A stretch of DNA of 64,000 nt from Deltaproteobacteria bacterium (lineage in GTDB: Bacteria; JAMCPX01), in assembly GCA_023382265.1 (NCBI GenBank), contig JAMCPX010000004.1, positions 1 through 64,000 of the forward strand, given 5' to 3'. The notes under the pieces are model-generated. The model was not told the origin of the DNA and searched no databases. It saw only the letters and a program-made list of their open reading frames with translations. Both the position numbers and the translations under genes were made by a program. Below are positions 28,658 through 34,408 of the stretch, in pieces. Each line of letters opens with the position of its first letter. The first letter of the stretch is position 1.

Positions 28658-28697
28658 TATGATCTTTCTCATACACATTTATTATTGCAGTGTATAG
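28658..28697 (+). promoter_or_regulatory. Putative CRP/FNR-family class II promoter
   Basis: A perfect palindrome TATGA-N6-TCATA (28658-28673) is followed by a -10-like TATAGA (28692-28697) with no -35 hexamer. The palindrome centre is about 40 bp upstream of the predicted start near 28705, as expected when an activator replaces the -35 box. The half-sites resemble those of CRP, HcpR and other CRP/FNR-family regulators. It resembles the site at 25766-25781 (TGTGA-N6-TCATA). Confidence 0.5.
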
Positions 28698-28707
28698 ATT
28701 TATTTAT

Positions 28708-29988
28708 ATGGAGTTAGCAACTGCAAAATCGCCAAAACTGAATATCCCCTTCAGGTACCTGTTTACAGGTACAGGAATACTTATTTTTATATGTTTAATA
28801 ATTGTATTAAAGCCGGAGGCACTTACACAGAATTATTTCAGGTCCCCGGTGCTTCTGCCGCTCACACATCTGTTGACGCTCGGCTGTATTACAATAACGA
28901 TCATCGGGGCAATGTTCCAGCTCGTGCCTGTCATAACAGAGAGGCAATTGTACAGCGAGGGCATTGCAAGGGCAGCGTATTATATTTATATCATTAGCAT
29001 CGCATGGCTTATTTATGCATTCTCTACATTTAATACACCCGCGGTCCCGGCGGGACTGTTAAGTTTGGCAATCTTATTATTCATTGTTGATATGATACTC
29101 ACATTTACAAATAAGGGAACCGCTGCAGCCCAAAATGGTGTTAAATTAAGACGTGATATCTCGGTTTGGTTTATTGTTACGGCGATCGGATTCCTATTCA
29201 TCACATTAATTATCGGCTCCATCGCTGCAGCAGGTCTGGACAAACAATTCATTGTCCATCCCATGGCATTGCTGCACATACACATAGCTATTGCAGGAAT
29301 CGGCTTTGTTACACTTGTGATCATAGGGTTCTCATTCAAACTTGTGCCCATGTTTATACTTTCACACGGCTACGAAGAGACAAAGGCATTGGTAGCCTTT
29401 GTTTTGTTTTTATCCGGAATAATCTTGCTTACATTGCATTTTTTCTTACTTCATTCATATACCTTTGTTTACTGGCTCGGCATATTAGCAGGCATAATAA
29501 TATTTACAGGCATAATATTTTATGTGCTTCAGATGCTGGACATTTACAGGCATCGTGCAAGAAAGCATATTGATCCCGGTATATGGCTTTCGATAACAGC
29601 AACAGGCTATCTTATAATAACAGGGGTACTCGGGTTATATATCATTGCATTTAAGCATTCTTTCCGCCTTGATATCGTTTATGCCGTTCTTGGACTCTTT
29701 GGATGGGCAGTACTTTACATTATGGGCATGATGCATAAAATAGTCCCTTTCCTGCATTGGTATAATAAGTACAGCTCAAAGATAGGACTTCAAAAGGTGC
29801 CCATGACAAAGGATATGATCAATGAAAGGCTCACATGGATACAATTATATCTATCCAATATCGGGCTTATTTTATTGGTCAGCGGGATTCTGACAGGTCT
29901 TATCGGTCTTATATTTGCCGGAGGCATTATTTTATTTGTCGATACAATCATATACGGATGGAATATCTTTAATGTAATCAGGAGGTGA
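28708..29988 (+). CDS. Polytopic membrane protein, heme-copper/NnrS-like
   Basis: A 426-residue protein with about 12 membrane helices. A motif of the form G-x-x-(F/H)-(Q/K)-(L/I)-V-P recurs three times (GAMFQLVP 67-74, GFSFKLVP 207-214, GMMHKIVP 340-347), each at the end of a helix, suggesting internal duplication. Conserved-looking membrane histidines occur at 54, 184, 190, 192, 343 and 350. The pattern H-x-x-T-L-G with a later G-x-x-x-Q-L-x-P resembles heme-copper oxidase subunit I-like and NnrS-type proteins that bind haem, but I cannot confirm haem or copper ligands. The ATG at 28708 is used; a GTG at 28690 is possible. The stop lies 2 nt before the next gene's start. Confidence 0.6.
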   Translation: MELATAKSPKLNIPFRYLFTGTGILIFICLIIVLKPEALTQNYFRSPVLLPLTHLLTLGCITITIIGAMFQLVPVITERQLYSEGIARAAYYIYIISIAWLIYAFSTFNTPAVPAGLLSLAILLFIVDMILTFTNKGTAAAQNGVKLRRDISVWFIVTAIGFLFITLIIGSIAAAGLDKQFIVHPMALLHIHIAIAGIGFVTLVIIGFSFKLVPMFILSHGYEETKALVAFVLFLSGIILLTLHFFLLHSYTFVYWLGILAGIIIFTGIIFYVLQMLDIYRHRARKHIDPGIWLSITATGYLIITGVLGLYIIAFKHSFRLDIVYAVLGLFGWAVLYIMGMMHKIVPFLHWYNKYSSKIGLQKVPMTKDMINERLTWIQLYLSNIGLILLVSGILTGLIGLIFAGGIILFVDTIIYGWNIFNVIRR

Positions 29989-29990
29989 GT

Positions 29991-30290
29991 ATGGTAACAA
30001 AAGAACAGGTTTACAATGCACTCGAGAATGTTATTGACCCTGAAATAGGGCTTAACCTGGTAGAGCTTGGGTTGATCTATGAGCTGAATATAAACAATGA
30101 CGAAGTTGATGTCAAAATGACTCTAACCGCAAGGGGATGCCCTCTGCACCTAAGCATACAGGCTGCCGCGGAAAATGTGATAAAGATGATCGACGGTATA
30201 AAAGGTGTTCGTGTTGATGTTGTATGGGAACCTCAATGGACGCCCGATAGAATCTCGCCTGAAGCTAAACTCAAACTCGGCATGGAATAA
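29991..30290 (+). CDS. SufT/PaaD-like iron-sulfur cluster assembly factor (MIP18 family)
   Basis: A 99-residue DUF59/MIP18-family protein. Typical motifs are VIDPEIGLNLVELGLIY (residues 14-30) and TLTARGCPLH (about 44-53) with the conserved Cys in RGCPL. Members (SufT, PaaD, CIA2) help mature iron-sulfur proteins. A strong ribosome binding site GGAGG overlaps the end of the upstream membrane protein gene, and 2 nt separate it from the downstream gene. The operon position suggests that it serves a metal-containing partner made by neighbouring genes (inference). Confidence 0.88.
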   Translation: MVTKEQVYNALENVIDPEIGLNLVELGLIYELNINNDEVDVKMTLTARGCPLHLSIQAAAENVIKMIDGIKGVRVDVVWEPQWTPDRISPEAKLKLGME

Positions 30291-30292
30291 TT

Positions 30293-31093
30293 ATGAAGAT
30301 CACACCTCAAACCAATGTCTTAGAGATGATAAAGGCACATCCGGAACTTGTTGACGTACTCATAAAGTATAATGAACATTTTAAGCTATTGAAAAACCCC
30401 ATAATGAAAAAGACGTTCGCAAGGCTCGCAACGGTTAAGCATGCTGCAAAGGCTGCAGGTGTTAACCTCCCGGATATGATCAAGGTTTTAAATAATGCCA
30501 CAGGCGAAACCGTATCGGATAACGACATTGATTCTGTAACAGCGGATACAGAGCCGCTTATCCGCGTAAAAGCACTTGTGGAAGAAAAGCACGCAAAGGT
30601 TTATAAGCTTGACGTGCGTGAACTTATGAGAACAGGCGGTGAACCTTTTAATCAGATCATGCAAACCGCTGCAAAGGTAAAGAACAGCGAGGCATTATTG
30701 CTTGAGACAATCTTTGAACCTGCCCCGTTGTACGATATGCTTAAAAAAAAGGGTTTTATTCATGAAACAGAGATGCCGGGTAGCGGCCATTATAAAATAT
30801 GGTTTTATAAGATTGAAAAGGCGGAGCGGCACGAGGAAACACAGGATACAAAAAAGCGGGTATGGACAGAGGATGGCACGGTATACATTGACGTAAAAGG
30901 ACTTGAACCTCCGCAGCCAATGGCTTTAGTGCTTGAAACACTTGCAAAAACAGAGGCTCATAAAACAGTAATTGTTTTCCATGAAAGGAAGCCTGTGTTC
31001 CTTTTACCAAAGCTTGAAGAAAAAGGTTACAAATACGAGATTCAGGAACTCAGTGAGCACGATGTAAGAATCATAATTCATAATCCTGAATAA
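30293..31093 (+). CDS. DUF1858 plus double DUF2249 domain protein
   Basis: A 266-residue cytoplasmic protein. Residues 1-60 form a DUF1858-like helical domain (TPQTNVLEMIKAHPELVDVL), as found fused to ScdA/RIC-type iron-sulfur repair proteins. Two TusA-like DUF2249 domains follow: about 106-175 (KLDVRELMRTGGEPFNQIM) and about 196-262 (YIDVKGLEPPQPMALVLETL). DUF1858, DUF2249 and DUF59 genes commonly occur together near nitric-oxide and denitrification genes in other bacteria. There is no hemerythrin domain here. The function is unknown; a role in NO or Fe-S stress response is inferred from these associations. Confidence 0.82.
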   Translation: MKITPQTNVLEMIKAHPELVDVLIKYNEHFKLLKNPIMKKTFARLATVKHAAKAAGVNLPDMIKVLNNATGETVSDNDIDSVTADTEPLIRVKALVEEKHAKVYKLDVRELMRTGGEPFNQIMQTAAKVKNSEALLLETIFEPAPLYDMLKKKGFIHETEMPGSGHYKIWFYKIEKAERHEETQDTKKRVWTEDGTVYIDVKGLEPPQPMALVLETLAKTEAHKTVIVFHERKPVFLLPKLEEKGYKYEIQELSEHDVRIIIHNPE

Positions 31094-31220: not shown

Positions 31221-31925
31221 ATGAAGCAACTGAAGGATGATACATATCTGTTAGAGTCAGGTAAGTTTGTGAATATTTATGCAATAGTACAGGGCAAGAA
31301 CGTTTTGATTATTGACACAGGAACGCCTGGCAAGGCAGACAATATGCTCAAAGAGCTTGCGGGAATAGGTATCAAACCTTCCGACGTTAAAGCCGTAATA
31401 ATAACCCATGCCCATCCAGATCATACAGGTTCATGCGCCGCACTCATAGATAAGACACGCGCAAAACTCTATGTACATAAGGACGACCTTGATGTTCTCG
31501 TGGGTAAATCCGGGCCTCCCAGACCGCGATATCTCTTAGAAAAGCTTTCTGCATTTATGATCAAGCATGTATGGAAATATAAACCGCCGCTTGATGCAAT
31601 ACCTGTGGATGAGGATTCCAGCATAAGTGGTTTTGATGGACTTAAAATTATACATACACCCGGGCATACACCCGGCTCCATATCTGTTCTTTATGAAAGG
31701 ACCGGTACACTCTTCTGCGGTGATGCAATAAACAAAAGGTCAGACAAACTTACCGGCCCGATTAAATACTTTACCGTCGATGCAGATCAGGCATGGCATT
31801 CTGTAGGGAAAATCGCTGCTTTGAACTTTAATAGCCTATGTCCCGGACATGGCAATTGGCTCTATCAAGATGCACAGCAAAAGGTCCATGACCTGCTTAC
31901 AAATAATAAACCCGATCAACCCTAA
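31221..31925 (+). CDS. Metallo-beta-lactamase-fold hydrolase
   Basis: A 234-residue cytoplasmic MBL-fold hydrolase. The metal motif HAHPDH (His63, His65, Asp67, His68) is complete. Further ligands are His149 in TPGHTPG, Asp168 in FCGDAI, and a C-terminal His in PGHGNW. Size and motifs fit the glyoxalase-II-like or quinolone-signal-like group rather than beta-lactamases. Together with mgsA later in the window a methylglyoxal link is conceivable but unproven. It is monocistronic. Confidence 0.9.
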   Translation: MKQLKDDTYLLESGKFVNIYAIVQGKNVLIIDTGTPGKADNMLKELAGIGIKPSDVKAVIITHAHPDHTGSCAALIDKTRAKLYVHKDDLDVLVGKSGPPRPRYLLEKLSAFMIKHVWKYKPPLDAIPVDEDSSISGFDGLKIIHTPGHTPGSISVLYERTGTLFCGDAINKRSDKLTGPIKYFTVDADQAWHSVGKIAALNFNSLCPGHGNWLYQDAQQKVHDLLTNNKPDQP

Positions 31926-33014: not shown

Positions 33015-33059
33015 CTAAAACTCTCAGAGCTAACTTATATACGCATTGCGGTACTGGGT

Positions 33060-33221
33060 TTATTCCTCTATCCCGAACTCATCTTTCATTGCACCGCACA
33101 GCGGACATACCCATGTATCGGGCAAGTCATTAAAGTCTGTTCCTGGCGGTATACCACCTTCGTGATCACCTAAAGCAGGGTCATATACATATCCGCATAC
33201 TGTGCATCTATATTTTTTCAT
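33060..33221 (-). CDS. rub: Rubredoxin
   Basis: A 53-residue rubredoxin, [18 protein letters not shown] at the start. Cys6, Cys9, Cys39 and Cys42 (CTVCG and CPLCG) bind one iron; the sequence [15 protein letters not shown] is standard. It starts 8 nt after the flavodiiron protein stop on the same strand, so it is its likely electron donor. The short length makes it easy to miss. The only start-site hint is GTGAG upstream. Confidence 0.96.
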
Positions 33222-33229
33222 ATGACTAC

Positions 33230-34408
33230 TCACAGTATATTAATCTCATGGTGTTTTGCAGCTATCTCGTTTGCCAGTCTCTCAACGGCACTGTATGCCT
33301 GGGCATCCGGCTTGCCCTTTATAAGTACATTCTCCAACATCTGAATCTTCAGGTTAGGTATTGTTTTTTGTATATCCTCTATCATCCTGCCACCCCACCC
33401 GTAAGAGCCGATTATGGATGCGAACTTTAATTTTGGTCTAAGCGCATTTGCAAGGAATGCTGCGGACATAACAATAGGATGCGCACCTGAAAGCACTGTT
33501 GGCGATCCCATCACCATGGTTGCAGCGTCAACCAGAGATATGGCAAGTTTCCCGAGGTCGGTTACGGTCAGATCAAACCTTTCTACTTTAATACCCTTGC
33601 CTGTCAACGCATCCGTTAAATAATCTACAAGCAGCTGGGTACTACCGTGCATTGATACGTAGGGTATAATAACCTCATTGCTCACAGTATCGGCAACCCA
33701 CTTCGTGTGTGATTTTACAATGCAGTCAATATTGTTATACAGAGGACCATGGCTTGGGGCGATGATCTCTGTACTATATTTTGCAAGCCGCTCAAGATGT
33801 TTATTTATGTTTGCCCTGAACGGCATCATCACCTCTGCATAGTACCTTTTTGCTGCTTCACACACCTTCCATTCTTCTTTACAGTACAGCTCCGACAAAG
33901 CAAGATGTGAGCCGAAGAGGTCACATGTAAAAAGTATTTTATCTTCATGAAGATAGCTGACCATTGTCTCGGGCCAGTGCACCCACGGCGTGTATATGAA
34001 TTCCAGCGTCTTGCCTCCGAGATCAAGTTTGGCACCGTCTTCTACCGTGGCAATACGATCTTCGGGAATATGAAGGTGATCTATCAGCATGGGCTTGCCC
34101 TTTGATGATGTAATAACCTGCGCATTACCGTATCTGTTGAGTACAGCCGGTATTGAACCCGAATGATCCTGTTCCGCATGATGTGATATGATAAAATCTA
34201 TGTTTTTTACATCCTTAAGATTTTGCATAAGCATATCCGTCATCGACGGATCCACAGTATCCAGCAGAGCTGTTTTGTTTTTTCCGTATATCAGGTAAGC
34301 ATTATAGCTTGTACCGTCCGGGATCGGGATAAGCGAGTCAAACAACCTTCTGTCCCAGTCCACTGCCCCAGCCAAGAACACATTATCTTTAATTTTCTTT
34401 AACCCCAT
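33230..34408 (-). CDS. fprA: Flavodiiron protein (A-type)
   Basis: A 392-residue flavodiiron protein that reduces O2 and/or NO with electrons from rubredoxin. The N-terminal MBL-like diiron domain has HHAEQDH (His77, Glu79, Asp81, His82) and [10 protein letters not shown]. The C-terminal flavodoxin domain begins near residue 250 with PYVSMHGST for FMN and continues to GSYGWGG. Length fits class A, with no fused rubredoxin domain, which explains the adjacent separate rubredoxin gene. GGGAGA precedes the ATG. It implies exposure to oxygen or NO in an anaerobe. Confidence 0.95.

Follow-up and report, generated by a model that had tools for sequence, protein, structure and literature searches.

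The window, a stretch of 64,000 nucleotides from a deltaproteobacterial genome, contains a three-gene module whose first member encodes a membrane protein with the predicted fold of a haem-copper oxidase from which the catalytic ligands appear to have been lost. The two other members encode a DUF59 protein and a relative of DrpB from Thermus. The module stands behind an operator that is shared with norCB, and its three families are found together in very different bacteria. Our tentative reading, to which we give somewhat less than an even chance, is that of an NO-induced accessory module of nitrate or NO respiration in which a membrane haem protein and the DrpB/DUF59 pair would protect or mature metallocentres. 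The features are the following:

28658..28673, + strand: operator TATGATCTTTCTCATA, a perfect 5+5 palindrome with half-sites of the CRP/FNR type (xTGA-N6-TCAx) in a class II-like position, kept in 8/8 module-bearing family genomes
28693..28698, + strand: possible -10 element TATAGA
28708..29988, + strand: gene 1, membrane protein of 426 aa and 12 helices, predicted haem-copper-oxidase fold with three pseudo-repeats; H54 and H192 are the only conserved His
29991..30290, + strand: gene 2, DUF59/MIP18 (SufT/PaaD-like) Fe-S assembly family, with an invariant Cys in a CPL motif
30293..31093, + strand: gene 3, DUF1858-DUF2249-DUF2249, full-length relative of Thermus DrpB; its DUF2249 domains are TusA-like
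33230-34408, - strand: flavodiiron protein with an adjoining rubredoxin; the pair spans 33046-34408

All elements named in the first-pass annotation are present in the sequence, and the case for them has become stronger. The three genes follow the palindrome on the same strand, and the gaps of 2 nt between them described in the first-pass annotation are found at 29989-29990 and 30291-30292. The Shine-Dalgarno sequence of gene 2 is AGGAGG at 29980-29985. That annotation had also pointed to the flavodiiron protein and rubredoxin nearby. They are real and plausibly represent an NO/O2 reductase pair, but a direct role in the module was rejected because they lie on the opposite strand, have no TATGA operator and are absent from the conserved neighbours. 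A metallo-beta-lactamase-fold protein is encoded at 31221-31925 (+), 127 bp downstream of the module, and is likewise absent from the conserved neighbours found.

The perfect TATGA-N6-TCATA palindrome, which had been placed about 40 bp upstream of gene 1, ends 34 bp before the ATG at 28708, and its centre is 42.5 bp away. A single palindrome is weak evidence by itself, since the second of the two perfect copies in the window (43831) sits inside cysS and was dismissed as a chance occurrence. The operator is more than chance because it is perfect and has a near-constant distance to the ATG of gene 1 (centre 41.5-43.5 bp upstream) in every one of the eight module-bearing family genomes, namely the window's own and those of seven relatives. 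A reading of the palindrome as coding sequence (MISLIHI) was rejected as well, because the distance to the ATG varies, so that the frame is not kept, and the codon variation is not synonymous. Upstream of gene 1 no sigma-70 -35/-10 pair was found on the + strand, in agreement with the earlier remark that a -35 box is missing. In most family relatives a TATACT/TATTAT-like -10 hexamer lies 9-15 bp upstream of the ATG and no Shine-Dalgarno sequence is present; the mRNA of gene 1 is therefore probably leaderless, with an activator bound at a class II position. The -10 element of the window is less clear than those of the relatives, and TATTAT at 28680-28685 is a better hexamer match than TATAGA.

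A search for further sites of the operator, suggested by the first-pass annotation as a check, revealed 14 perfect sites in the own genome compared to 2 for the reversed-pattern control. Four of the 14 are intergenic: one upstream of the module, one divergent to norCB, one upstream of a small DUF2249 gene and one that is unclear. An intergenic perfect TATGA palindrome (L112, G000:C57:3384-3399) is located 115 bp upstream of a dnaX-like gene with no evident NO link. With the stricter pattern TATGATC-N4-TCATA 26 sites were found in nine family genomes (control 0), and 23 of them precede five types of genes, i.e. the module (9), norCB (2), the small DUF2249 gene (4), a YwiC-like gene (7) and a DUF542/ScdA_N gene (1), the remaining three being unclear or inside genes. 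Here the names NorC and NorB were given from sequence motifs, and YwiC-like and DUF542 from Pfam. The NorC-type protein of the divergent pair has two CxxCH motifs and its NorB-type partner matches PF00115 with E 3.8e-63. Among the relatives, one norB orthologue (L175, G004:C259:5259-6572) has one in-frame TGA in a draft genome, either an assembly error or decay. The YwiC-like membrane gene (PF14256) stands behind the same operator in seven family genomes (L126, L129, L142 and others), and contigs C52 and C130 of G005 carry two different copies of gene 1, each with its operator, owing to duplication or assembly contamination.

What norCB and DUF542/ScdA_N proteins have in common is a connection with NO. 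We infer from the shared operator that these genes form an NO regulon of the CRP/FNR type (DNR/NnrR/HcpR-like) with NO as the probable inducer. The link of the module to NO is direct, because the same operator precedes norCB, and on this point the earlier proposal of CRP/FNR-type control with a connection to NO and denitrification holds; oxygen, which it had named as an alternative signal, is unsupported. The best candidate for the regulator of the operator is a CRP/FNR gene (G000 C22:61967-62635) located about 0.7 kb from an operator-bearing DUF2249 promoter. Its orthologues (76-81% identity) are found in five other family genomes, thus in 6/9 altogether. This group has the recognition helix GTTVET[TA]IR, another paralogue group having the CRP-like TRETVSR, and in the sequence of the C22 regulator no FNR N-terminal cysteine cluster was found.

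Gene 1 gave no Pfam or NCBIfam match at E <= 1, and a sequence search found no solved structure for it. The AlphaFold2 (AF2) model, based on an alignment of 49 relatives, has a mean pLDDT of 94.7 and a pTM of 0.94. Its 38 best PDB matches in Foldseek are all haem-copper oxidases or NO reductases, with CcoN of cbb3 (3mk7) on top (TM 0.78/0.72, E 1.8e-8), and a comparison with a viral structure library gave nothing below 0.001. Profile comparison detected a COX1-type oxidase (95.6% probability, E 1e-8) and NnrS-like domains (96%, E 1.8e-9, nearly full length). The protein is built from three homologous units of four helices each and has two conserved His, as expected for three-unit haem-copper-oxidase (HCO) homologues. 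The previously noticed G-x-x-(F/H)-(Q/K)-(L/I)-V-P repeats are present as GAMFQLVP (residues 67-74), GFSFKLVP (207-214) and GMMHKIVP (340-347); in the general form G-x-x-x-(Q/K)-(L/I)-V-P they are the three 4-helix units of the oxidase fold.

The earlier description as a His-rich protein was misleading, as H54 and H192 are the only invariant His (49/49 sequences). This means that two of the six ligand His of oxidases (TM II, VI, VII x2, X x2) are kept and four are lost. The regions matching TM VII and TM X contain no conserved His in the 49 sequences, and by homology gene 1 thus lacks CuB and the ligand of the high-spin haem. The kind of the membrane protein can now be named: according to the predicted fold it is a haem-copper-oxidase homologue without catalytic ligands. 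A function as oxidase or NO reductase is ruled out by the loss of the ligand His. The profile alignment to NorB is weak (54.8%) and that to the COX1-type oxidase is shifted by one repeat, so the mapping of ligands rests on conservation and motif spacing. The spacing from His to the Pro of the motif, 20 in repeat 1 and 22 in repeat 2, points to an orientation of both His towards the pore that separates these two repeats, a position that would match the low-spin haem site after rotation. The product of gene 1 is likely a haem membrane protein, still putative.

The assignments made earlier for the two soluble proteins were corroborated. Gene 2 matches PF01883 with E 4.6e-21, and its C51 is invariant in four sequences. 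It remains below the NCBIfam equivalog cut-offs, with 102.7 vs 143.4 bits for TIGR02945 and 44.7 vs 108.15 for TIGR02159. Gene 3 consists in Pfam of DUF1858 and two DUF2249 stretches, the domain composition of DrpB; in a sequence search its DUF1858 part matches the solved structure 2fi0, and the YeeE-YeeD thiosulfate uptake complex is among the top structural matches (E about 0.01, weak). NnrS-like membrane domains are found in one polypeptide with DUF542/DUF1858-like ends (L144, L145; end domains assigned by eye), and DUF59-DUF1858 fusions exist (PMC4982691). Such fusions suggest that the three proteins work together.

At least 491 relatives of gene 1 were found in a scan of genome contigs. 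The 80 loci kept for analysis belong to Bacillaceae, Verrucomicrobia, Chloroflexi, Ktedonobacterales, Methylomirabilota, Nitrospirae and Deltaproteobacteria. The co-occurrence of the three families, which the first-pass annotation had set as the neighbourhood test, is clearly visible: they lie within 3.5 kb of each other in 77/83 loci (the 80 and three more distant ones) and in 62/64 loci away from contig ends. Bacillaceae loci are arranged as DUF2249-DUF2249-membrane-DUF59, and most of them have a CRP/FNR gene directly upstream. Other neighbours are a quinol NO reductase (qNOR) type (23 loci; PF22085 and PF00115), another oxidase (26), a further DUF2249 gene (36) and a TIGR04053 radical SAM protein (20) that scores next to haem b synthase and NirJ. 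Among 300 genomes from the taxonomic order of a Bacillaceae locus the module is present in 54, qNOR in 26 and both in 23 (Fisher p 1.3e-16, with kinship ignored); the other 31 genomes with the module gave no match to qNOR, so that the module is not tied to qNOR alone.

The motif TGTGA-N6-TCACA (<=1 mismatch) occurs upstream of the module in 23/62 loci compared to 0.55 in shuffles, and this enrichment at distant modules means that CRP/FNR control reaches beyond the family of the window. Upstream of the distant modules the FNR, DNR and HcpR2 consensus sequences show no clear enrichment, the signal of TGTGA being strong and that of TATGA weak. Since the site is common with NO reductase and the trio recurs in very different bacteria, it is probably a standard accessory system for coping with NO during nitrate respiration.

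A close known system is found in Thermus. Gene 3 shares 33-35% identity over 98% with DrpB, as represented by DUF2249 proteins on Thermus plasmids. Along pTHTHE1601 (NC_017273) genes for a CRP/FNR regulator, a GAF protein and a c-type cytochrome are followed by narG, narH, TorD family, narI and MFS; then come drpA and drpB, to which we gave these names by position and domains, and after them a protein of 144 aa, protoglobin, a membrane protein of 383 aa and DUF59. Of the two proteins given by length, the 383-aa one is a member of the gene 1 family (E 3.1e-73), and the 144-aa one matches a single 4-helix unit (E 2.7e-11). In this nar cluster (L179:12795-15273) the single-unit oxidase homologue and the protoglobin separate drpB from the 12-helix homologue. 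According to the passages on drpAB in PMC6282519, DrpB is composed of DUF1858 and then two DUF2249 domains. In these and in the corresponding passages of PMC7694296 drpAB is treated as a two-gene operon with DrpB as a cytoplasmic, membrane-associated protein, and no mention is made there of the membrane or DUF59 genes.

We propose the following sequence of events for the NO-induced accessory module. The promoter of the module would be activated by a regulator that senses NO and lacks the iron-sulfur cluster of FNR; the C22 gene is a candidate for it. The gene 1 protein would hold a single b-type haem, placed between H54 and H192, and might either exchange electrons with the quinone pool or bind NO. 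The gene 3 protein may dock on it from the cytoplasmic side and, together with the DUF59 protein, could supply or re-load iron-sulfur or iron centres of respiratory metalloenzymes under NO stress. Iron handling by the module is hypothetical and fits the DUF59 partner. Maintenance of metallocentres is favoured because the loss of drpA and drpB in Thermus, as described in the passages of PMC6282519, reduces nitrate reductase activity to about a tenth while NarG protein is still made. The authors themselves read DrpAB in these passages as nitrate sensors and not as maturation factors.

A rival reading is a signalling relay, which we regard as rather unlikely though serious: the membrane haem protein would sense NO, nitrite/nitrate or the redox state, and the DrpB-type protein would restrain or release an activator of the CRP/FNR family. 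In Thermus the gene 1 homologue would then be the missing membrane link from periplasmic DrpA to cytoplasmic DrpB. Consistent with a relay, dnr and nar are transcribed constitutively once DrpB is lost, and the signal path from DrpA to DrpB across the membrane is stated as unknown (passages in PMC6282519 and PMC7694296). The membrane and DUF59 genes of Thermus follow in the same cluster just downstream of drpAB, and CRP/FNR genes adjoin the module in 52/80 loci. However, it is hard to see what the DUF59 partner would do in a sensor, a pure sensor does not account for the largely inactive nitrate reductase without DrpAB (same passages of PMC6282519), and in the window no CRP/FNR gene adjoins the module. 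It is distinctly improbable that the gene 1 protein scavenges or converts NO in the manner of NnrS and is matured by the two small proteins; the nearly full-length remote homology to NnrS-like domains, the position of the module in an NO regulon and the lack of PF05940 (NnrS) in the own genome would suit such a role, but homology indicates neither a CuB or non-haem iron site nor a high-spin haem ligand, and the conserved His are in repeats 1 and 2 instead of repeats 1 and 3 as in the three NnrS-type sequences inspected. Finally, it is highly improbable that gene 1 encodes a transporter or permease with haem, iron or a sulfur compound as its cargo, to be handled by the gene 3 and DUF59 proteins. 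Such a function is suggested by the TusA-like nature of the DUF2249 domains and by the weak match to YeeE-YeeD, a complex whose membrane transporter works with a TusA-like part, and is opposed by two invariant His on the helices that carry ligands in oxidases. To our knowledge the haem-copper-oxidase fold is not a transporter fold.

Beyond the preferred accessory role we put forward a speculative and on balance unlikely idea, namely that in many phyla the gene 1 protein fills a gap in the DrpB system as its transmembrane haem component. It would be an oxidase fold stripped of its catalytic site, with a single haem moved to the repeat 1/2 pore, which as NO/redox receptor or electron donor would control or service the DUF1858-DUF2249 and DUF59 partners. 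The three-gene set is present in Bacillaceae, Verrucomicrobia, Chloroflexi, Thermus, Nitrospirae and others and has so far been without an assigned function. The NO regulon, the oxidase fold without catalytic site and the Thermus nar cluster now provide a concrete candidate for the membrane contact of DrpB, and the part that DUF2249 and DUF59 proteins play in denitrification becomes testable.

NnrS is a 12-helix haem-copper-oxidase homologue in NO regulons. Gene 1 resembles it in the remote profile match to NnrS-like domains, but it has no match to PF05940, its conserved His occupy other repeats and DUF2249/DUF59 genes are its regular neighbours. It was rejected as a member of the NnrS family. 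With CcoN, NorB and COX1 (PF00115) it shares the fold (TM up to 0.78) and the COX1-type profile match. In contrast with haem-copper oxidases and NO reductases, it has lost four of six ligand His and has neither a binuclear centre nor a Pfam match. The HCOH proteins of Pei et al. 2014 are reportedly 12-helix three-unit homologues with two conserved His able to bind one haem and are said to be linked to denitrification. The gene 1 family is probably one of these HCO-homology families, so that what is new is the module with its regulation and not the fold. A statement in PMC11218638 ascribes to the work of Pei et al. an association of DUF2249 with the haem-copper oxidase superfamily. Gene 2 shares PF01883 with SufT, PaaD and MIP18, but it falls below the SufT and PaaD equivalog cut-offs and lies outside suf/paa operons. 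The Thermus DrpA/DrpB cluster is like the module of the window in combining a DrpB-type gene 3, a member of the gene 1 family and DUF59, and it also contains a CRP/FNR regulator. It differs in its gene order and in having the extra DrpA, as well as protoglobin and the 4-helix protein between drpB and the membrane gene.
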